Assembly: GCA_019695095.1 (NCBI GenBank)
Contig: JAIBAQ010000052.1
Location: 1-34,480 of the forward strand
Reading direction: 5' to 3'
Source: Candidatus Hydrogenedentota bacterium
Lineage (GTDB): Bacteria; Hydrogenedentota; Hydrogenedentia; Hydrogenedentales; SLHB01
Length of the DNA stretch: 34,480 nucleotides
The position numbers and the translations under genes were made by a program. Within the stretch, counting starts at the first letter, position 1. Each line of letters begins with the position of its first letter. Below are positions 5,862 to 23,742 of this stretch, in pieces. Below the pieces are notes generated by a model that was not told the DNA's origin, ran no database searches, and saw only the letters and a program-made list of their open reading frames with translations.

Positions 5862-6725
5862 ATGAAGGTCGAATTCGAGCGAACGTTTCGCGTGCGCCAC
5901 TACGAGTGCGACGCATACGAAGACGCTTTCTATACCAGCTATTTGCGCTACACCCAGGAAACGGCGATGGACGCGTCGGCCTCCTTGGGCTTCGACGGCC
6001 CGTGGTACGCCGAGCGCGGTACCGTTTGGCTCGTGCGCGACACCGAGATCGAGTATCTCCGCCCGGTGCGCTACGGCGATTCCGTCGTTGTAAAGACATG
6101 GGTCGAGAACGTGCGCAAGGTGATGTCAAAACGCGCCTACGAACTGCGGAACTCGAACTCCAACGAGGTTGTGGCGCGGGCCGCAACGGATTGGGCCTAC
6201 CTCGATGTCAAAACCGGCAAACCGGCGCGAATCCCCGACGAATTCACCGAAATGTTTCTTGCGTCGGGCGGCGGCAGCGCCAACAACAACCGCGAACGTT
6301 TTCCCGATCCGCCTGCCCCCGCGGGGCGTGTGTTCAAGCAACACCGGCGCGTTGGCTGGCGTGATGTAGACCCCGCGCAGCACGTAAACAACACGGTCTA
6401 CCTCGCGTACGCGGAGGATTGCGCCGTCGAGGCCGCGGTAAGCGCAGGCTGGACACCGGAGCGCATGCGCGCGGAGGGCGTATGGTTGATTGCGAGGAAG
6501 CACCGCATCGAGTACCGGCAACCCGCCGTGCTGGCGGACGACCTGGAGGTGGCCACCTGGGTTTCCGACGCAGGAGAGGACCGCTTCGTGCGTCATTACG
6601 CGATCACGCGTATCGGCGACGGTGTCGTGCTGGCGCGTGCGCGCGCGGAACTGGCATGTATCGAGCCGGAGAAACGAGAAGCTATGCCTATGCCTGAATC
6701 GCTACGCAATGCACTAATCGACTGA
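5862..6725 (+). CDS. Tandem hot-dog acyl-thioesterase family protein
   Basis: The 287-aa protein contains two hot-dog domains (about residues 5-130 and 155-280), the arrangement of acyl-ACP/acyl-CoA thioesterases of the 4HBT/FatA superfamily. The second half has the classical catalytic-region motif D-P-A-Q-H-V-N-N-T-V-Y-L-A-Y (near residue 167), with the Asp and the HVNN segment expected of 4HBT enzymes. The first half keeps the Asp and the YLRYTQE helix, but the HVN segment reads DAF, so it may serve structure or substrate binding. The ATG at 5862 has AAGGAAG just upstream. The following serine-hydrolase/NamZ gene begins 11 bp after the stop, so the two are probably co-transcribed. Substrate (acyl-ACP, acyl-CoA or aromatic-CoA) cannot be told from sequence. 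Confidence 0.8.
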   Translation: MKVEFERTFRVRHYECDAYEDAFYTSYLRYTQETAMDASASLGFDGPWYAERGTVWLVRDTEIEYLRPVRYGDSVVVKTWVENVRKVMSKRAYELRNSNSNEVVARAATDWAYLDVKTGKPARIPDEFTEMFLASGGGSANNNRERFPDPPAPAGRVFKQHRRVGWRDVDPAQHVNNTVYLAYAEDCAVEAAVSAGWTPERMRAEGVWLIARKHRIEYRQPAVLADDLEVATWVSDAGEDRFVRHYAITRIGDGVVLARARAELACIEPEKREAMPMPESLRNALID

Positions 6726-6736
6726 AAGAGAACCTG

Positions 6737-8962
6737 ATGACCGAACTCCAAATCGAATCTGTACGGTCCGCGGCGGTGAAGGCTGTTGAGGACTCCAAAA
6801 GTCCGGGCGCTGTCGTCTATGTAGGAGACTCCGAAAAGACGTACGTGTTTGAGGCGATTGGCAATCGCGCCGTGAAGCCGCGCGAAGAACCTGCCACGAA
6901 AGATACGATCTACGATCTCGCGTCGCTCACCAAAGTAATTGCGACAACAACGTCGATCATGTTGCTGCATGAAGAGGGCAAGATCGATCTCGATGCGCCC
7001 GCGTCGCACTACGTGCCCATTCCCGCGTTTGGCGCGTTTACCATCCGCCACTGCCTGACGCACACGTCGGGACTGGTCGCGCTGATGCCTTTCTACAAAG
7101 AGTGCGACTCCGTGGATGAAATGCTTCAGAAATATGCGGGCGAGCCGCTGAAGTGGCCGCCGGGCACGCGCTGGAAGTACTCGGACGCGGGATTCCTGCT
7201 GCTTGGACGCACCGTCGAACTGACGGCGCGCGATTCGCTGGCGTCGTTCACGCGCAAACGCATCTTCGAGCCATTGGGGATGCGCGACACCATGTACAAG
7301 CCGCCAAAGGAACTGGCGGCGCGTTGCGCGCCGACGGAGCAGTGCGCGTGGCGAAAACGGATCCTGCGCGGCGCAGTGCACGACGAGAACGCGTTTGCCA
7401 TCGGAGGAATCGCCGGACACGCGGGCCTCTTCAGCACGGCGGATGACATCGCGAAGTTCGTGCGTGCCTTGCTTGCAGGAAAGATACTCAAACCAGAGAC
7501 GCTTGAGACCATGTTGCGCCTGGATCAGACTCCCGTCTGGCCTTGGCAGGGCATAGGCTGGCAACTGGACCCCTGGACTTCGAAGAACTGGGGCTTCCTG
7601 ACCTCGCGCACGGCGTTTGGGCACACGGGGTGGACCGGCACAAGCCTTTGGACTGACGCCAAGACGGGTCTTTTCGCCATTCAACTCGCCAACACCTGCC
7701 ACCCATCGAGAACAACCCGCGACAACGAAACGTTGCGCAACGTGTTCTCCATCGGCGTGTCACGCGCGGCCTACCCCAACACAACCAACGCGCACTCGGG
7801 GCTGGACCGTCTCGTCCGCGAAGACTTCGATCCGTTTCGAGGCAAGCGCATCGCGCTATTGACGCACCATGCTGCGGTGGACCAATTGGGGCGGCACATA
7901 CTCGACGTGTTCAAGCTCGCTCCAGACGTGACGCTCCAAGTCTTGTATAGCCCGGAGCACGGCCTGCGGGGAACCGCCGAGGCCGGAGAAAAAGTGGGAT
8001 CCGAAAAGGGCGCCGTTCCGCTGATCAGCTTGTACGGCAATCGGACTGCGCCCACTCCCGAAGAACTGAAAGGGGTCGATTACTTCCTGGTCGATCTGCA
8101 GGACGTTGGTTCAAGGTACTACACCTACGCGGCGACGATGAAAGCGTGCATGGAAGCCTGTGCCGCCGCAGGCGTGACGGTGATCGTGCTGGACCGCCCC
8201 AATCCCGTCGGCGGAAACGTACTGGAAGGTCCCGTCGCGACAAGTGCTACCAGTCCGGTGTGTTGGGGGAAGGTTCCCATCCGGCACGGGATGACGCTGG
8301 GAGAAGTCGCGGCCTACTTCCAGAAGTACGAGCTCAGCGGCAAAGTCTCGCTCGACATCAAGACGCTCGACGCATGGGAACCGGTTCGCTACTTCGACGA
8401 GTGTGCGCTGCCGTGGATTCCCCCTTCGCCCAATATCCCGAATCCCAACACGGCGCTGCTTTACGTTGGAATGTGTCTGTTTGAAGGCACGAATCTCAAC
8501 GAAGGCCGTGGCACGGATACGCCGTTTGAAGTCGTTGGCGCGCCGTGGCTCGACGCGAAACAGGTCATCCATTCGTTGTCCGAGTCCGACGTGCCCGGTT
8601 GCAGTCTTGAGCCGATCGAATACACCCCGCGCAGTCTTCCGGGCAAGGCGTCAAGTCCGCGGTTCATGGATGAGTCGTGCAGGGGCATTCGTGTTCGCAT
8701 CACGGATCGCGCGACGGCACGCCCGTTCACGGCAGCCGTCGCGCTGATTTCGGCCATCCATCGAAAACACGGACGGCGCCTCAAATGGAGCGAACACTTC
8801 GATGTGCTCACGGGTTCGGGCGATCTCCGGAAACGCATTGAGCAAGGCGCTTCAGCAAGCGACATCGTGAATTCGTATGCCGAGCCGCTGAAAGCCTTCG
8901 ATGAGTTGCGTCCAAAGTCCTATTTGCCTGTGGAGGAGAAATCTGTCCCCGTGACGAAGTAG
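6737..8962 (+). CDS. Fusion protein: class C beta-lactamase-fold serine hydrolase + DUF1343 (NamZ-type exo-beta-N-acetylmuramidase, GH171)
   Basis: Residues 1 to about 345 are a serine hydrolase of the beta-lactamase/esterase fold with its three active-site motifs: S63-L-T-K66 (SxxK), Y148-S-D (YxN-like) and H296-T-G. Residues about 355-735 are a complete DUF1343 domain: SPEHGLRG near 405, DLQDVGSRYYTY near 453, DRPNPVGG near 486, and FEGTNLNEGRGTDTPFE near 582. DUF1343 includes Bacillus subtilis NamZ, which removes terminal MurNAc from peptidoglycan. In B. subtilis a separate beta-lactamase-fold enzyme, AmiE, which cuts the MurNAc-peptide bond, is encoded in the same muropeptide-rescue cluster. 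Both activities may therefore sit on one chain here. No signal peptide or lipobox is visible at the ATG (weak AAGAGA ribosome site), so the protein appears cytoplasmic unless the start is wrong. Domain identities are secure; peptidoglycan as substrate is inferred from family and context. Confidence 0.88.
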   Translation: MTELQIESVRSAAVKAVEDSKSPGAVVYVGDSEKTYVFEAIGNRAVKPREEPATKDTIYDLASLTKVIATTTSIMLLHEEGKIDLDAPASHYVPIPAFGAFTIRHCLTHTSGLVALMPFYKECDSVDEMLQKYAGEPLKWPPGTRWKYSDAGFLLLGRTVELTARDSLASFTRKRIFEPLGMRDTMYKPPKELAARCAPTEQCAWRKRILRGAVHDENAFAIGGIAGHAGLFSTADDIAKFVRALLAGKILKPETLETMLRLDQTPVWPWQGIGWQLDPWTSKNWGFLTSRTAFGHTGWTGTSLWTDAKTGLFAIQLANTCHPSRTTRDNETLRNVFSIGVSRAAYPNTTNAHSGLDRLVREDFDPFRGKRIALLTHHAAVDQLGRHILDVFKLAPDVTLQVLYSPEHGLRGTAEAGEKVGSEKGAVPLISLYGNRTAPTPEELKGVDYFLVDLQDVGSRYYTYAATMKACMEACAAAGVTVIVLDRPNPVGGNVLEGPVATSATSPVCWGKVPIRHGMTLGEVAAYFQKYELSGKVSLDIKTLDAWEPVRYFDECALPWIPPSPNIPNPNTALLYVGMCLFEGTNLNEGRGTDTPFEVVGAPWLDAKQVIHSLSESDVPGCSLEPIEYTPRSLPGKASSPRFMDESCRGIRVRITDRATARPFTAAVALISAIHRKHGRRLKWSEHFDVLTGSGDLRKRIEQGASASDIVNSYAEPLKAFDELRPKSYLPVEEKSVPVTK

Positions 8963-9291: not shown

Positions 9292-10047
9292 ATGTTTTTC
9301 ATGGGGCCGGGCACATTGCGACCGAAGTTTCTCGGGGGCCTTCTATTACTTCTGACCGTTGGCGCGATGGTCTCCGTATTCGGGCGTTCGTACTGGGTTC
9401 CGCTGTATTATCGGCTCATGGGATCGCGAAACATTGCAGACGTCATTGCGGAGTTGGAGCCGAGAGCGGGCGCCGTTTGGCGCGACCACTGCGCGCAGCA
9501 GGGCGTGGCTTTTCCACCCAAGTCCGTCACGCTGGTTTGCATAAAGGAAGACAAAATGATCGAAGTCTGGGCGGACGGCGCGCCTGCTCACAAACTTGCG
9601 ACGCTTGCGCTCACCGCATACAGCGGCAAGCCCGGCCCGAAGCTCCGAGAAGGCGACCTGCAGATACCGGAAGGCATCTATCCGCTGACGGTTCTAAATC
9701 CCAACAGTTCGTTTCATCTTTCCATTCGCGTCGGCTATCCCAATGCTTTTGACAAATCATGGGCAAGGGAAGAAGGACGCACGAATCTTGGCGGCGACAT
9801 CTATATTCACGGCAAAAGTGCGTCCGTGGGATGCATGGCGATTGGCGATGCGGCCATTGAAGAACTCTTCTATTTGGCGCATGCCGTTGGCTTGGCGAAT
9901 ACACGAATAATGGTCATTCCGAACGACTTCCGAAAGACCGGCGTCCCCGATGCTCAGTCTATGCCTGCCAAGGTGCATGAACTGTACGGAACGATCGAAG
10001 CGGAGCTGAACGCATACCGTGAGACGGTTGTTAAGGAGGGAACATGA
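9292..10047 (+). CDS. YkuD-fold L,D-transpeptidase, YafK/DpaA-like, membrane-anchored
   Basis: Peptidoglycan-acting enzyme of the L,D-transpeptidase catalytic (YkuD) family. Residues about 13-31 form an N-terminal membrane or signal segment, so the catalytic part would lie in the periplasm. The catalytic motif IHGKSASVGC (H173 and nucleophile C181) matches HG-x(n)-S-x-GC, and the preceding SSFHLSIRVGYPN with the following AIGDAAIEELF is typical of the YafK subgroup. In E. coli YafK (DpaA) releases Braun lipoprotein from peptidoglycan rather than cross-linking it, so either cutting or joining of D-centre bonds is possible. ATG 9292 lacks a strong ribosome site and Met4 is an alternative. The stop overlaps the next start (ATGA), implying translational coupling to the GNAT gene. 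Confidence 0.85.
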   Translation: MFFMGPGTLRPKFLGGLLLLLTVGAMVSVFGRSYWVPLYYRLMGSRNIADVIAELEPRAGAVWRDHCAQQGVAFPPKSVTLVCIKEDKMIEVWADGAPAHKLATLALTAYSGKPGPKLREGDLQIPEGIYPLTVLNPNSSFHLSIRVGYPNAFDKSWAREEGRTNLGGDIYIHGKSASVGCMAIGDAAIEELFYLAHAVGLANTRIMVIPNDFRKTGVPDAQSMPAKVHELYGTIEAELNAYRETVVKEGT

Positions 10048-11159: not shown

Positions 11160-13490
11160 CTACGGCGTGGCCGGTGCTTTCACCCGCAGTTTGTCGCCAA
11201 CCTGCAGACTGTCGCTCTCCAACGCGTTCCACTTCCTCAAGTCGTCCGCGGTGACTCCAAACTTGTCCGCGATCTTCGAAAGGTTGTCACCACGCTCGAC
11301 GGAGTAAGTATCGGCATCGGCAGGAGGCGCAGGCGCAGGTGCTGCCGCTTCGGCGGGAGGCGTTTCTGCTGGAGCCGGTTGGGTTTCTTCCGCATCCGAT
11401 TCCTCGGGGGGCGTAAAGTTCTGCGGCACGTTTACGATAAGCAACTGATCCACCTGCAGACTCGTATCAGGCAGGCCGTTCCATTCCATTAGGTCTTGGT
11501 AGGTGACATTGTACTTCTTCGCAATGTTCGCCAGATTCTCCCCGCGCCTGACCTTGTGCGTCAGAGCCTTGGTACCTTGCGGGGCGGGAGCTGTCGCCTC
11601 GTGAGGCGGCTCCTCGTCCGGCGGCTGCGCCGTCGGCGGCACACTCGGATCCGGCGCAGTCTCAGGAGCAGGTGCGGCAGGCGCGGGCTCGGGCGCTGCA
11701 ACGGGCTCCGCAGGCGCTGGCGCAGGGGCTTCGGGAGCCGGCGCCGGAGGCTCGGGAGCTGGAGTCGGAGTTTCGGGAGCCGGCGCCGCAGGCTCGGGAG
11801 TTGGAGTCGGAGTTTCGGGAGCCGGTGCCGGAGTCTCGGGAGCCGGTGCGGATTCTGTGGGTTCTCCGGCAGGGTAAATTTTCAGCTTCTGTCCGACGCG
11901 GACACTCGTCTTCTTCAGATCGTTCCACTTCACGATCTGCTTCGTCGTTACGCCATATTTGGACGCGATCTTCGACAGCATGTCGCCCTTTTCAACGACG
12001 TGAACAATCTCGGTGCCAGGCGCGGCACTACCTTCCGGCGCCGTTGCATCCGCATCGGTCTTCGCGTCGTCCTTCTTCGGAAGCTGACGCAAGGTTCCTT
12101 CAAGGCGAGGAGGCGCCTTCAGCCATTGCTGCCAGCCATCCAACCGCTTCTTGCTCTTGGACAACGTTGCGCGCGACAGCGTGGGGTTTTCCTCATAGAT
12201 CTTGCCGGGCTCAGGCTGCGTCACAGCATCGGCCGGCGCAGCGTCACCGGCGGTCACGGCGGCTTCAATTGCCGCGCACACGCCGTGCAGCGCTTCCGGA
12301 GAGACGTTCTGCACAATCGCGGCATCGCAACCGGCTTTCAACGCCGCGATGACTGCCTTGTCGAGCGGGACGGTCTTCGCGATCGCGCCAAGCGACATGT
12401 CATCCGCGATGACCACGCCGCGATAGTCCCACATCTCTTCGCGCACGTTGCGGCCCACGATCACCGGAGAAATCGACGCGGGGCGATCGGGATTCTTGTC
12501 GTCGAGCGCGGGAACGAGAATGTGCGAAACCAGGATCCCCGGAATCTTGACGCTCGCCGCCTGCTGGAACGGAAACACGACTTCCGCCAATTCGGAAGTG
12601 GACTTCTTGTTCAGCGCCGGTTTGTCGTTCAGATCCTCCGGGCAACCGCCAATGCCGGGATAGTGCTTCACAACAGGGATAACGCCCGCGGACGTTAATC
12701 CGTCGGCAAACGCCAAGCCTATTGCGGTAACCATACCGGAATCAGAACCGAACGTGAGCGATTTCATCGCGTCGCCCGCAGTCGGCTCGTAAATGTCCAG
12801 GGAAGGTCCCAACAAGACGCCAATACCGGCGCTCGCACACACGGATCCGACAGTGCGCCCGGCCATTCGGGCATACTCGAGATCGCCTTTCTTCTGACAC
12901 TCTTTGGCGACTTCAGGCGGGCTCAGGTTCTTCTTCAAACCAAGCTTCTTCAGCACTTCGCTTTCATCGTCGGCAGCGATGATCGGCAGACTGGCGATAT
13001 CCGTTCCGAGACCCACCGCCTCTTTGATCGCGGTGACCAGCGCGGCGGTCTGCTCTTTCGATTCGATATTGGCCGAAGTCAACAAGACGCCGCCGGGTTT
13101 CAGATCGGCAAGCAACGTCTTCGTTGCATCGTCGAGCTTCGTGCCTTGCACTGTCACGATGAGATGGCGGGCAGGCCACAAGTCTTCAAGGGCATCCATT
13201 TCGCTGGGCGGCGTCTGCGGCTCGGCAGGTTCACCGGAAATAGACGCAGGCGGATTGGAAGGCCCGGCCGACTCCGAAGGCGTCGCCTCCGGCGCTGTTG
13301 TCTCGGGTCCCGGGCTGGTGTTCTCGCTTACGTCTATCGGGGCAGGTGTCTGAGACCTTCCATAAAGCCCGTAACACAAGGCGAAACCGGCCAGGAAAGC
13401 CAGCACCGGGATGAGTATCAGCCGGAAGGACAAATAGGGTTTGCGTTTGCGAACGTAGACTTCCACGATCCCTCTCCGCTTGACCGTCAC
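11160..13490 (-). CDS. Membrane-anchored GH3 (NagZ-like) protein with three C-terminal LysM domains; catalytic His replaced
   Basis: Residues 21-43 are a single transmembrane anchor, followed by a Pro/Ser/Thr-rich spacer to about 98. Residues about 105-410 form a GH3 N-terminal barrel of the NagZ type: KHYPGIGG (275-282) and VVIADDMSLGAI (359-370), the latter holding the Asp nucleophile position. In NagZ the first motif continues to D-S/T-H, whose His is the acid/base. Here the aligned residues are D286-L-N288, so that His is Asn. LysM domains lie at about 495-540, 643-688 and 728-772, joined by Pro/Ala/Glu-rich linkers, and should hold the protein on peptidoglycan. GTG 13490 lacks a well-placed ribosome site. 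GTG 13466 (MEVYVRKRKPYLSF) has GGAG 7 nt upstream and may be the true start. The protein is either a divergent N-acetylglucosaminidase or a non-catalytic wall-binding GH3 protein. Confidence 0.87.
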   Translation of the reverse strand: MTVKRRGIVEVYVRKRKPYLSFRLILIPVLAFLAGFALCYGLYGRSQTPAPIDVSENTSPGPETTAPEATPSESAGPSNPPASISGEPAEPQTPPSEMDALEDLWPARHLIVTVQGTKLDDATKTLLADLKPGGVLLTSANIESKEQTAALVTAIKEAVGLGTDIASLPIIAADDESEVLKKLGLKKNLSPPEVAKECQKKGDLEYARMAGRTVGSVCASAGIGVLLGPSLDIYEPTAGDAMKSLTFGSDSGMVTAIGLAFADGLTSAGVIPVVKHYPGIGGCPEDLNDKPALNKKSTSELAEVVFPFQQAASVKIPGILVSHILVPALDDKNPDRPASISPVIVGRNVREEMWDYRGVVIADDMSLGAIAKTVPLDKAVIAALKAGCDAAIVQNVSPEALHGVCAAIEAAVTAGDAAPADAVTQPEPGKIYEENPTLSRATLSKSKKRLDGWQQWLKAPPRLEGTLRQLPKKDDAKTDADATAPEGSAAPGTEIVHVVEKGDMLSKIASKYGVTTKQIVKWNDLKKTSVRVGQKLKIYPAGEPTESAPAPETPAPAPETPTPTPEPAAPAPETPTPAPEPPAPAPEAPAPAPAEPVAAPEPAPAAPAPETAPDPSVPPTAQPPDEEPPHEATAPAPQGTKALTHKVRRGENLANIAKKYNVTYQDLMEWNGLPDTSLQVDQLLIVNVPQNFTPPEESDAEETQPAPAETPPAEAAAPAPAPPADADTYSVERGDNLSKIADKFGVTADDLRKWNALESDSLQVGDKLRVKAPATP
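11577..11849 (-). repeat. Imperfect tandem repeats coding for Pro/Ala/Glu-rich linker between LysM 1 and LysM 2
   Basis: The coding strand reiterates units for PAPETP/PAPEAPAPAP-like peptides, seen on the plus strand as repeated blocks of GGCTCGGGAGC and TCGGGAGCCGG. The repeats encode a stiff, extended linker of about 90 residues. Such repeats are prone to length change between strains. Confidence 0.75.
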
Positions 13491-20056: not shown

Positions 20057-21988
20057 TTACTCTATGTACTTGCCTCGGGCCGTATAGTGGGTGTGCAACA
20101 GCTTGTGACTGATGTGCCCACAGGGACCGTCTGTCAAGTACTCATTATACACCTTCGTGACGGCAGGGTTTTCGTGCGACTTGCGCACCGAGTACGCCCG
20201 GTCTTCACTGTAGATTGCTTCAGCGCGCGCCGCGCGGATAGCCGGACTGGTCGGAATCGGCTGGCCGCCGCCGCCCAGGCAGCCGCCCGGACACGCCATC
20301 ACTTCGATAAAGTGGCATTCACTGAACTTGCCGCCCGCCTTCACGTCGTCCATAACCTTCTTGGCGTATGCGGTTCCGTGAGCCACGGCCACCTTCAGGG
20401 TCGCGCCCTTGAGCCACTTCCAATCCTTGAACAACCCTTTCAGAATGTCGGGCACGGGTCCTACTTCCTTAATCGGAAGTTCCGCGTACTTGATGCCTTC
20501 GAAACCGCGCACGGGGACGATCTCCGCGTGGTCGAAGAAGTTCTCGACCTTGTTCCCCGTGACCAGTTCGACCACCGTGCGCAGCGCCGCTTCCATGACG
20601 CCGCCCGTCGCTCCGAAGATCACGCCGGAACCCGTAGCGGTGCCGAACGGATCGTCAAAGTCAGACTTCTCCAACTCCGGCAGGTAGATACCCGCTTCGC
20701 TGATCATCTTCCCCAGTTCGCGGGTCGTCAGGCCGTAGTCCACGTCCTTGTAACCGCTGTCGCACATCTCGGGGCGGTTGCACTCAAATTTCTTGGCCGA
20801 GCACGGCATGAGCGCAACCGATACGATGTCCTTCGGATCGATCTTGTTCAGCTTGGCGTAATACGTTTTGATCAACGCGCCAAACATCTGTTGCGGACTC
20901 TTCGCGGACGACAGATTGTCGATCATGTCGGGATAGAAGTGCTCCAGGTACTTCACCCATCCCGGCGAACAACTCGTTAGCTGCGGCAGCGCGACCGGCT
21001 GTTTGTCCACCAGCGCCTTCTTCAAGCGCAGCAGGAGTTCTGTGCCTTCTTCGATGATCGTGAGGTCCGCCGTGAAGTTCGTGTCGAACACCTTGTCGAA
21101 CCCGCACAGGCGCAGCGCCGTGTTCATCTCGAAGGTCAGGGCGCGTCCGGGCGGGAGCCCGAAGCATTCCCCGATGCCCGCGCGCGGGCTGGGCGCCGTC
21201 TGCATGATCACGTGCTTGGTTGGATCGTCGATGGCCGCCCACACGTCATCCGTGGGATCGTTGGCGCGCAACGCGCCGGTGGGACACCGGTTGATGCACT
21301 GTCCGCAATTGATGCACACCACCTCACCCAGCGGCTTGTCCATGAACGTAACGACGCGCGTTTCCGCGCCGCGATTCTCCACTTCCAACACGCCGACTTC
21401 CTGGAAGTCGATACACGTGCGGATGCAGCGGCGGCACAGAATGCACTTGTTCATGTCGCGGACCACGGAATGGCTGGAGCAATCGATCTCGTACTTCGGT
21501 TCCGTCGGGTGCCCGAAGCGGAAGAAGTCCACGCCGTATTCCTTGGCAAGGCTCTGCAATTCGCAGTTGTTGTTGCGGGCGCACGCATAGCATTCGCCGT
21601 AGTGATCGGACAGCAGCAGGTCAAGGATGTGCCGGCGAGCCTGACGCACTTTGCGCGTGTGCGTTTTGATCTTGATCGGCGACGTGATGGGAAACGCGCA
21701 TGACGCCTGGAGTGCGCGCTGCGTGTCAACCTCGACGACGCATATACGACACACGCCCGCCACGCACAGATCCTCGTGGTGGCACAAGGTGGGGATCTTT
21801 ATCCCTAACTGCTTGCATGCCTCGAGGATGGTCGTGCCCACAGGCACTTTGACAGTCCTTCCGTCGATATCGACCGTCACTTTCGCGCCGATTGCTTGCG
21901 AGTCGGCGCCCTTTAAATCAATCGTCTGCCCGCGCTGGCTAACGGGCGCGCGAGAAACGTCTTTTCCGAATGTAGTGGAATCGGACAT
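20057..21988 (-). CDS. hydA: [FeFe]-hydrogenase catalytic subunit HydA (NAD-linked trimeric type)
   Basis: Catalytic subunit for reversible H2 formation. Domains in order: N-terminal [2Fe-2S] ferredoxin domain (C69, C80, C83, C97); His-Cys3 [4Fe-4S] site (H129, C133, C136, C142); two [4Fe-4S] clusters (C182-x2-C185-x2-C188-x3-C192 and C225-x2-C228-x2-C231-x3-C235); then the H-cluster domain with TSCSPGW (338-344), MPCSAKKFE (394-402) and EVMACPGGCLGGGGQP (562-577). A small-subunit-like tail (SEDRAYSVRKSHENPAV) follows. The first H-domain motif reads Cys-Ser where many monomeric enzymes have Cys-Cys. The start is 3 bp after the hydB stop, with AAGGAG overlapping that stop, so translation is coupled. 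With NuoE- and NuoF-like partners it should exchange electrons between NAD(H), possibly ferredoxin, and protons. Confidence 0.96.
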   Translation of the reverse strand: MSDSTTFGKDVSRAPVSQRGQTIDLKGADSQAIGAKVTVDIDGRTVKVPVGTTILEACKQLGIKIPTLCHHEDLCVAGVCRICVVEVDTQRALQASCAFPITSPIKIKTHTRKVRQARRHILDLLLSDHYGECYACARNNNCELQSLAKEYGVDFFRFGHPTEPKYEIDCSSHSVVRDMNKCILCRRCIRTCIDFQEVGVLEVENRGAETRVVTFMDKPLGEVVCINCGQCINRCPTGALRANDPTDDVWAAIDDPTKHVIMQTAPSPRAGIGECFGLPPGRALTFEMNTALRLCGFDKVFDTNFTADLTIIEEGTELLLRLKKALVDKQPVALPQLTSCSPGWVKYLEHFYPDMIDNLSSAKSPQQMFGALIKTYYAKLNKIDPKDIVSVALMPCSAKKFECNRPEMCDSGYKDVDYGLTTRELGKMISEAGIYLPELEKSDFDDPFGTATGSGVIFGATGGVMEAALRTVVELVTGNKVENFFDHAEIVPVRGFEGIKYAELPIKEVGPVPDILKGLFKDWKWLKGATLKVAVAHGTAYAKKVMDDVKAGGKFSECHFIEVMACPGGCLGGGGQPIPTSPAIRAARAEAIYSEDRAYSVRKSHENPAVTKVYNEYLTDGPCGHISHKLLHTHYTARGKYIE

Positions 21989-21991
21989 GGT

Positions 21992-23224
21992 TTACTCCTT
22001 CTCACCGGGAGCCGCGGCAATCCGGCCCATGAGTTCGTCTTTGAAGTGCGCAACGATGGAAAGAAACGCGTTGGGCGCGGACTGGCCCAAGCCGCATTTG
22101 GAGGCGAGTTGCATGGTCTCGCCGAGGCCGCGAAGTTCCCGCAGATACTGCATGGAACACGCGCCCTTCGAGAGCTTCTCCACACCCTCCAACAGCTTCG
22201 CCGAGCCCACCCTGCACGGGGTGCACTGGCCGCACGATTCTTCCACGAAGAACTCCAAGAAGTTGCGCGAGACGTCTACCATATCCCGATCGGGTCCAAA
22301 CACAATGATGGAACCGCCCGTGGGGATGTCCTCATAGGCGATGGTGCGCGCGAATTCCGAAGCCGGTACGCAATGGCCGGACGCGCCGCCAATCTGTACC
22401 GCCTTCGCATCTTCTCCGCCGACTTCTTTCAGCAAGTCGGCCACGCTGATGCCCATCGGAAACTCGTACACACCGGGGTGTTCGCAGTCGCCGGATACGC
22501 TGAACAGCTTCAACCCCGTGGACTTGTCCGTTCCAATGCTCTTGAACCAGTGCGCGCCTTTCGCAAGGATGCACGCGACCCACGCGAGCGTTTCGACGTT
22601 GTTCACCACGGTGGGATGTCCGAGATAACCCGTGTCTACGGGGTATGGAGGACGATTGCGAGGTTCGCCGCGGTGACCTTCCAGCGACTCGATGAGCGCG
22701 GTTTCTTCACCGCACACATAGGCGCCGGAGCCCATGCGAATCTCGATGTCGAACGTGAACCCTTCGCGAGAGAGGATGTTTTCGCCCAAAAGCCCCTCGT
22801 TGCGCCTGCGCTGCAAGATGGCTTCCAGAAGAGGACGAAGATACGAGTATTCGCCGCGCAAGTAGATGATGCCGTGCTTTGCGCCGATTGCGAGCGCGGC
22901 AATGGACATGCCTTCGAACACGAGATCCGCGTACTCGGTGAGAATGACGCGGTCTTTGAAGGTGCCCGGCTCGCCTTCGTCGGCGTTGCAGACTACGTAC
23001 TTGTGTTCGTCTTTTGCGGCCGCCGCCAAATTCCATTTGACGCCCGTGGGGAAGCCCGCGCCGCCGCGTCCCTTCATGCCCGACGCGCTGATTTCGGCGA
23101 TGATTTCGCTCCGGTGTTTCTTAACGGCGTGTTGCAGGCCCGCGTTGATTCTTGCGCTGCCGAAGGTCAGCGGACCCGTCTTGGTATTGTGCATGCCGGC
23201 AGCCCGATCCAGCGTTACGTTCAT
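21992..23224 (-). CDS. hydB: NAD(H)-binding NuoF-like hydrogenase subunit HydB (short form)
   Basis: Flavoprotein subunit carrying FMN and NAD(H) for the trimeric hydrogenase. FMN/NADH-site motifs are GRGGAGFPTGVKW (52-64), VVCNADEGEPGTFKDR (77-92) and GAYVCGEETALIESLEG. The [4Fe-4S] site is ESCGQCTPCR plus a later Cys in SKCGLG. The frame runs upstream to 23383, but the first 53 residues are antisense-like filler. ATG 23224 has AGGAG 8 nt upstream and overlaps the hydC stop by 4 bp. The resulting 410-aa protein is the NuoF core only. The N-terminal [2Fe-2S] domain and C-terminal double [4Fe-4S] domain of longer HydB proteins (about 600 aa, Thermotoga/Acetobacterium type) are absent, which bears on whether the complex can bifurcate electrons. 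Confidence 0.94.
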   Translation of the reverse strand: MNVTLDRAAGMHNTKTGPLTFGSARINAGLQHAVKKHRSEIIAEISASGMKGRGGAGFPTGVKWNLAAAAKDEHKYVVCNADEGEPGTFKDRVILTEYADLVFEGMSIAALAIGAKHGIIYLRGEYSYLRPLLEAILQRRRNEGLLGENILSREGFTFDIEIRMGSGAYVCGEETALIESLEGHRGEPRNRPPYPVDTGYLGHPTVVNNVETLAWVACILAKGAHWFKSIGTDKSTGLKLFSVSGDCEHPGVYEFPMGISVADLLKEVGGEDAKAVQIGGASGHCVPASEFARTIAYEDIPTGGSIIVFGPDRDMVDVSRNFLEFFVEESCGQCTPCRVGSAKLLEGVEKLSKGACSMQYLRELRGLGETMQLASKCGLGQSAPNAFLSIVAHFKDELMGRIAAAPGEKE

Positions 23225-23742
23225 ACGAGGTACTCCTGCCGTTTCTCCGTGGCGAACACCCCAAAGGCCCGCCTGCACCCATCGAGTATGTCGTGGACCT
23301 TGTCCGGCGTCACGCGCGTGAACACGTGATCGTTCACGAGCATCGCGGGCCCCTGGTCGCACATGCCGATGCAGTTCGCCCACTCGAGCGTGAACCGGCC
23401 GTCCGGCGTCGTTTCGCCAAACGAAATGCCCAGGTCGTTCTCAAGCTGACGCGCGACCCGGTCTTTGTTCTGCATCGCGCAGGAAAGGGTGCGGCACAGC
23501 CGGATGATGAACTTCCCCTTGGGGCGATGGTCGAGAAAACTGTAGAAGGAGACCACGCCGTATACCTCGACCGGATGAATGTCGAGCATGTTCGCGACCA
23601 CTTGCATGGCGTGTTCGGAGACGTGGAAATACTTCGCCTGTATCTCCTGCAGAATGGGGATCAGCGCGCTGCGCGTACGCCCGAACTCGTCTCCCCATCT
23701 CTGGATGTCCTGGTTGAGCTTGTCTTGTTGGGTCTGAAACAT
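23221..23742 (-). CDS. hydC: NuoE-like [2Fe-2S] hydrogenase subunit HydC
   Basis: Thioredoxin-fold [2Fe-2S] protein of the NuoE/HndA family that passes electrons between the flavin subunit and HydA. The cluster cysteines are CRTLSC (C-x4-C) and NCIGMC (C-x3-C), preceded by VYGVVSFYSFLDHRPKGK, a typical NuoE block. The 173-aa length is normal. A TTG at 23745 is possible, but ATG 23742 fits better, with GGAGG about 8 nt upstream inside the end of the response-regulator gene and only 3 bp after its stop. The tight spacing upstream and the 4-bp overlap downstream show one transcript with hydB and hydA. Confidence 0.95.
   Translation of the reverse strand: MFQTQQDKLNQDIQRWGDEFGRTRSALIPILQEIQAKYFHVSEHAMQVVANMLDIHPVEVYGVVSFYSFLDHRPKGKFIIRLCRTLSCAMQNKDRVARQLENDLGISFGETTPDGRFTLEWANCIGMCDQGPAMLVNDHVFTRVTPDKVHDILDGCRRAFGVFATEKRQEYLV

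Follow-up and report, generated by a model that had tools for sequence, protein, structure and literature searches.

The exo-muramidase of the Bacillus muropeptide-rescue set is NamZ, as Mueller et al. reportedly established in 2021 (J Biol Chem; cited in PMC10936207), and in Bacillus both NamZ and AmiE act outside the cell. In B. subtilis, the genes amiE, nagZ and ybbC, the last now named namZ, are located downstream of murQRP, and AmiE and NagZ degrade muropeptides sequentially (PMC5061867). In Tannerella forsythia, the MurK/MurQ pair converts cytoplasmic MurNAc to GlcNAc-6-P (PMC10465942), and the same paper, on the MurT-MurQ-MurK pathway, cites the two exo-muramidases NamZ1 and NamZ2 of this organism. 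A preprint on mycobacterial recycling does not mention NamZ, while a survey of serine proteases published in 2008 lists a DDPept-DUF1343 architecture represented by YP_439122.1 (PMC2605481).

The DNA described here, called the window, is a stretch of 34,480 nucleotides from a Candidatus Hydrogenedentota genome, in which an ORF on the forward strand, from an ATG at 6737 to a stop codon at 8962, encodes a 741-aa fusion of an AmiE-like S12 hydrolase and NamZ (GH171/DUF1343) that is devoid of a signal peptide. The S12/beta-lactamase-fold domain (6776-7726, +; aa 14-330; PF00144, E 1.3e-64), assigned to the AmiE subfamily by signature and tree, is followed by the Rossmann-like NamZ_N domain (7850-8446, +; aa 372-570; PF07075, E 6.4e-64) and by the NamZ_C domain (8456-8923, +; aa 574-729; PF20732, E 9.5e-44), which includes the EGRGT motif (589-593); all three Pfam domains are far above cut-off, each with E < 1e-42. 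The Pfam domains and the single ORF thus bear out the preliminary description of an AmiE-like hydrolase and NamZ on one 741-aa chain, and this is the sole NamZ domain in its genome (6.77 Mb, 405 contigs). The AF2 model of the fusion (mean pLDDT 87.4, pTM 0.88) has both folds matched in the PDB, to the DUF1343 structures 4k05 and 4jja (TM 0.88 and 0.86, respectively, normalised by target) and to several S12 structures; residues 204-227, inside the S12 half and with the VHDEN signature among them, are modelled with low confidence. Enzyme families, subfamily signatures and gene linkage are the same as those of B. subtilis AmiE (YbbE) and NamZ (YbbC), encoded in the cluster murQ-murR-murP-amiE-nagZ-namZ. 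However, in Bacillus (L078) the two proteins are separate and signal-bearing, whereas in Hydrogenedentota they form one signal-less chain; moreover, murQ and nagZ stand alongside in the Bacillus cluster, whereas here MurQ is encoded on another contig (C17) and no canonical nagZ adjoins the fusion.

Since PF00144 by itself spans beta-lactamases, esterases and peptidases, the subfamily of the S12 half was tested on an alignment of the window protein with S12 proteins adjoining or fused to NamZ in other lineages, some of which were picked by HMM score near NamZ genes, and with 15 other Hydrogenedentota S12 proteins; the Bacillus S12 protein taken as "AmiE" is encoded in the amiE-nagZ-namZ locus of Bacillus sp. 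SKDU12 (L078) and was assigned by gene context. The nucleophile motif SxxK is present as SLTK (6923-6934, +), with S63 and K66 unchanged throughout 26 fusions, and the same invariance holds for the second motif, Y148-S149-D150 (7178-7186, +), a YSD also found in Bacillus L078, and for H296-x-G298 of the third, HTGWTG (7622-7639, +), which also contains the signature residues T300/G301. The AmiE-subfamily signature, defined against the paralogues, consists of TE (200-201) and VHDEN (214-218) at 7334-7390 (+); T200, E201, H215 and D216 occur in 13/13 AmiE-context S12 proteins of other lineages and are rare in the 15 paralogues. More generally, the AmiE-context set conserves fifteen positions that paralogues rarely share (D60, P189, T200, E201, G212, H215, D216, G224, V225, A229, F232, T300, G301, N319, H322); the window protein agrees at 14 and differs at 225, where it has I. 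In the S12 tree, rooted on the paralogues, 31 AmiE-context or NamZ-linked rows split from the 15 paralogues of the same phylum with an SH-aLRT of 94. The S12 half is therefore AmiE-like, as had been proposed, in that signature residues and tree placement link it to the S12 protein of the Bacillales amiE-nagZ-namZ cluster and not to generic paralogues.

An ordinary class C beta-lactamase was rejected, the bla_class_C model giving 58.7 bits against a cut-off of 415. It is rather improbable that only the NamZ half works as envisaged, as an exo-muramidase, and that the S12 half acts on the same fragments as an esterase, D-aminopeptidase or DD-carboxypeptidase instead of a MurNAc-L-Ala amidase: S12 folds include esterases, DD-peptidases and beta-lactamases, the top NCBIfam match is PBP4B, well under its cut-off, and identity to the Bacillus AmiE-context protein (L078) is just 31%, but the 14 subfamily positions are common to NamZ-adjoining S12 proteins, the Bacillus member included, and mostly missing in paralogues, and the linkage of such S12 proteins to NamZ, fused or adjacent, recurs in several phyla.

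The assignment of the C-terminal half to the NamZ-type exo-muramidases, also made in the preliminary description, stands, since this half is full length and retains every near-invariant residue: PF07075 is covered from 1 to 202 of 203 positions and PF20732 from 1 to 150 of 152, and the window protein agrees with all 51 columns that are at least 95% conserved across 82 other NamZ sequences. In particular, the SPEHG motif (7949-7963, +; aa 405-409) contains P406, H408 and G409, conserved in at least 99% of 83 NamZ sequences, and in the same alignment of 83 sequences the NamZ_C stretch E589-T593 is conserved; near-invariant positions of Bacillus NamZ are likewise common to the Hydrogenedentota fusion. 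On the alignments, all the visible catalytic motifs are intact, as first noted. Among the other sequences of the family, near-identical NamZ proteins come from MAGs assigned to Akkermansia muciniphila and to Verrucomicrobiales (L113 and L117); a single lineage may have been given two names, or there may have been a mistake in binning or labelling. Within 6 kb of a NamZ homologue of Bacillus subtilis strain DE0224 (L115:5956-7134, +), neither an S12 nor a GH3 gene was detected, and this homologue branches separately from the NamZ proteins of amiE-nagZ-namZ clusters.

The AmiE–NamZ fusion is a core gene of Hydrogenedentota. By tabular count, 55 of the 68 phylum genomes sampled carry it full length or nearly so, at 41-63% identity, and five further genomes have contig-edge pieces spanning both domains; in the remaining ones there are fragments, or the fusion is missing in incomplete assemblies. 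A sequencing or assembly artefact is ruled out because 55/68 genomes have this junction within a single open frame, with the five edge pieces in addition. The Hydrogenedentota fusions form a single clade in both the S12 tree (SH-aLRT 99) and the NamZ tree (SH-aLRT 98), in line with a fusion already present in the ancestor of the phylum.

The preliminary description overstated the rarity of this arrangement. Joining these two domains is in itself no novelty, given that the S12–DUF1343 pair was catalogued in 2008: the survey entry has the same domain pair in one protein, with the function of DUF1343 then unknown, and the accessible part of that survey concerns one protein and gives neither localisation nor phylum-wide conservation (PMC2605481). 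Fused homologues, with S12 preceding NamZ in one chain as here, also occur outside the phylum in Planctomycetaceae/Pirellula (L049, L051), Thermoanaerobaculia (L047) and the Firmicute Epulonipiscium (L052); they fall in separate places of the NamZ tree and suggest more than one fusion event. Unlike the window protein, these fusions have a signal peptide or an N-terminal TM segment, and the one from Thermoanaerobaculia adds a NagZ domain. S12 and NamZ neighbours of Poribacteria (L050, L101) share the gene order, the AmiE-type S12 and the lack of a visible export signal, but they are two separate adjacent genes and not one chain. In the open-access literature, where a failed search is a weak negative, no description was found of the signal-less core-gene status, of the pairing with a kinase–MurQ protein or of the Thermoanaerobaculia GH3-S12-NamZ architecture. 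The latter is a stop-to-stop ORF of 1521 aa in a MAG (L047:1218-5780, +) with a signal peptide, a GH3 domain (NagZ, KHFPGHGDTSSDSH intact), an AmiE-type S12 domain and NamZ, and it unites all three Bacillus rescue enzymes. In Neomarinimicrobiota, GH3-S12 (NagZ-AmiE) fusions occur (L069:10306-12996, -; L102:8542-11547, -) with NamZ separate and nearby, and in the two planctomycetes a second NamZ gene, belonging to a distant clade of the NamZ tree, directly follows the S12-NamZ fusion (L049:8087-9481; L051:6969-8186).

Leaders were searched by hydropathy and by eye, reading each locus upstream to a stop codon. In 39 of 40 phylum loci no hydrophobic or twin-arginine leader is reachable from a start codon, the exception being G030 (L024/L044/L133) with the Tat-like leader MQRLTRRQFARQSAAAGLTLLAMSKQVACA; in the window, the frame from the upstream in-frame stop to the ATG at 6737 contains no further start codon. 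The preliminary description was therefore right about the missing export signal, both in the window protein and in 39 of the 40 relatives examined. A missed upstream start with a signal peptide was discarded on the same grounds, the ATG being the only start in frame and the 39 relatives likewise leaderless. Homologues were the proposed check on the N-terminus, and they answer it in two ways: within the phylum a signal occurs only in the G030 protein, in line with the original view, but signals are present in the fused homologues of planctomycetes, Thermoanaerobaculia and Epulonipiscium, so that localisation appears lineage-specific. Signal-less NamZ is common elsewhere, since 34 of 71 other NamZ ORFs, as judged by crude hydropathy, have no hydrophobic stretch upstream of the domain, notably in Nitrospirota.

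These N-termini also bear on the idea that the fusion acts in the periplasm or outside the cell, reached by a non-classical signal or an unrecognised route, and there carries out both reactions of the secreted Bacillus enzymes. The signals or TM segments of the fused homologues L049, L051, L047 and L052, those carried by the Bacillales S12 (AmiE), GH3 (NagZ) and NamZ proteins and the one Tat-like leader within Hydrogenedentota speak for it, but it is improbable, somewhat more so than a non-amidase S12 half, in view of the leaderless phylum members, the single in-frame start of the window gene and the cytoplasmic MurNAc-processing genes of the same genome. In fact, a BadF/NagK-like kinase–MurQ etherase fusion of 671 aa is encoded on contig C17 (G000; L040:7133-9148, +), in a row with a SpoIID/LytB protein and AnmK and with an MFS gene close by on the opposite strand; by tabular count, this kinase–MurQ protein spans both halves in 42/68 phylum genomes. 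An Mpl ligase is above cut-off in this genome, whereas TIGR00901 detected no AmpG-family importer, PF17676 found no LdcA/S66 LD-carboxypeptidase and no family-specific cut-off was reached by the MFS gene next to AnmK. As in the MurT-MurQ-MurK pathway of T. forsythia, MurNAc would be handled by a cytoplasmic kinase and MurQ; in T. forsythia, a MurNAc auxotroph, the enzymes are separate, whereas in Hydrogenedentota kinase and MurQ are fused. Cytoplasmic processing, regarded as conceivable from the window alone, gains support from the BadF-kinase–MurQ fusion, AnmK and the Mpl-like ligase, and the cytoplasm is the most likely site of the fusion protein because of these enzymes and the absent signal.

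The surroundings of the fusion are not conserved among the 40 relatives. A double-hotdog thioesterase gene (5862-6725, +) ends 11 nt upstream and its co-transcription with the fusion is possible; it stands beside the fusion in only 2 of the 40. Downstream are a YkuD/DpaA-like protein with an N-terminal TM segment (9292-10047, +), whose gene overlaps the following GNAT gene by 4 bases, and, 2.2 kb from the fusion, a NagZ-like GH3 with an N-terminal TM segment and LysM repeats (11160-13490, -), whose DxH dyad has another residue in place of the catalytic His (KHYPGIGGCPEDLND); GlmS is encoded within the same window. The closeness of GH3-LysM and the presence of GlmS could evoke a dedicated peptidoglycan-rescue operon formed with YkuD and comparable to the Bacillus cluster, but this is very improbable: GH3-LysM is beside the fusion in one of the 40 relatives and YkuD and GlmS in none, the GH3 has lost its catalytic His, and strands and spacing do not suggest a single operon. 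A conserved rescue operon around the fusion was thus rejected, as neighbours differ among relatives, and the GH3 as active NagZ partner is disfavoured by the replaced His. Relatives of this GH3 are mixed, some keeping DSH and others having lost it, as though the motif had decayed in steps or the function had changed. The curated NagZ cut-off is passed by no phylum genome, under a strict model that only 3 of 14 control genomes pass. Elsewhere in the window (20057-23383, -), a [FeFe]-hydrogenase large subunit and a NuoF-like subunit adjoin, consistent with the electron-bifurcating hydrogenases described in this phylum (PMC11406978).

Taken together, a cytoplasmic bifunctional muropeptide-processing enzyme, its activities predicted from sequence, is the best explanation of the fusion and a reasonably probable one. 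NamZ requires a terminal MurNAc, from which AmiE takes off the peptide, so that in the joined protein a single chain would take off first the peptide and then the sugar. The AmiE-type serine hydrolase at the N-terminus would remove the stem peptide from the non-reducing-end MurNAc of an imported peptidoglycan fragment, and the C-terminal NamZ would then cut the unsubstituted MurNAc from the following GlcNAc. The MurK-like BadF kinase would phosphorylate the freed MurNAc and MurQ, fused to it in this genome, would turn the product into GlcNAc-6-P, and religation of the released peptide would fall to the Mpl-like ligase. We infer both activities, their order of action, the cytoplasmic location and the uptake step through an importer. 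Weighing against this reading are the failure to find an AmpG-family importer, LdcA or a NagZ above its strict cut-off, the altered GH3 nearby, the variable gene neighbourhood, the Tat-like leader of G030 and the 31% identity to the Bacillus AmiE-context protein. A wider scenario is tentative and rather doubtful: a phylum-wide, AmpG-independent, cytoplasmic MurNAc-first recycling by the fused AmiE-NamZ and MurK-MurQ proteins, with Mpl taking the peptide; in some members of the phylum, the NagZ-like GH3 would have degenerated into a protein of the envelope.

That these enzymes act in sequence is strongly hinted at by their repeated fusion (NagZ-AmiE-NamZ, GH3-AmiE, AmiE-NamZ and BadF kinase-MurQ), and the fused proteins are compact constructs for tests of substrate hand-over. 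As a signal-less fused core gene of a Gram-negative phylum, AmiE–NamZ suggests that exo-muramidase-based recycling can run in the cytoplasm; fragments would then have to enter through an importer that is not AmpG.
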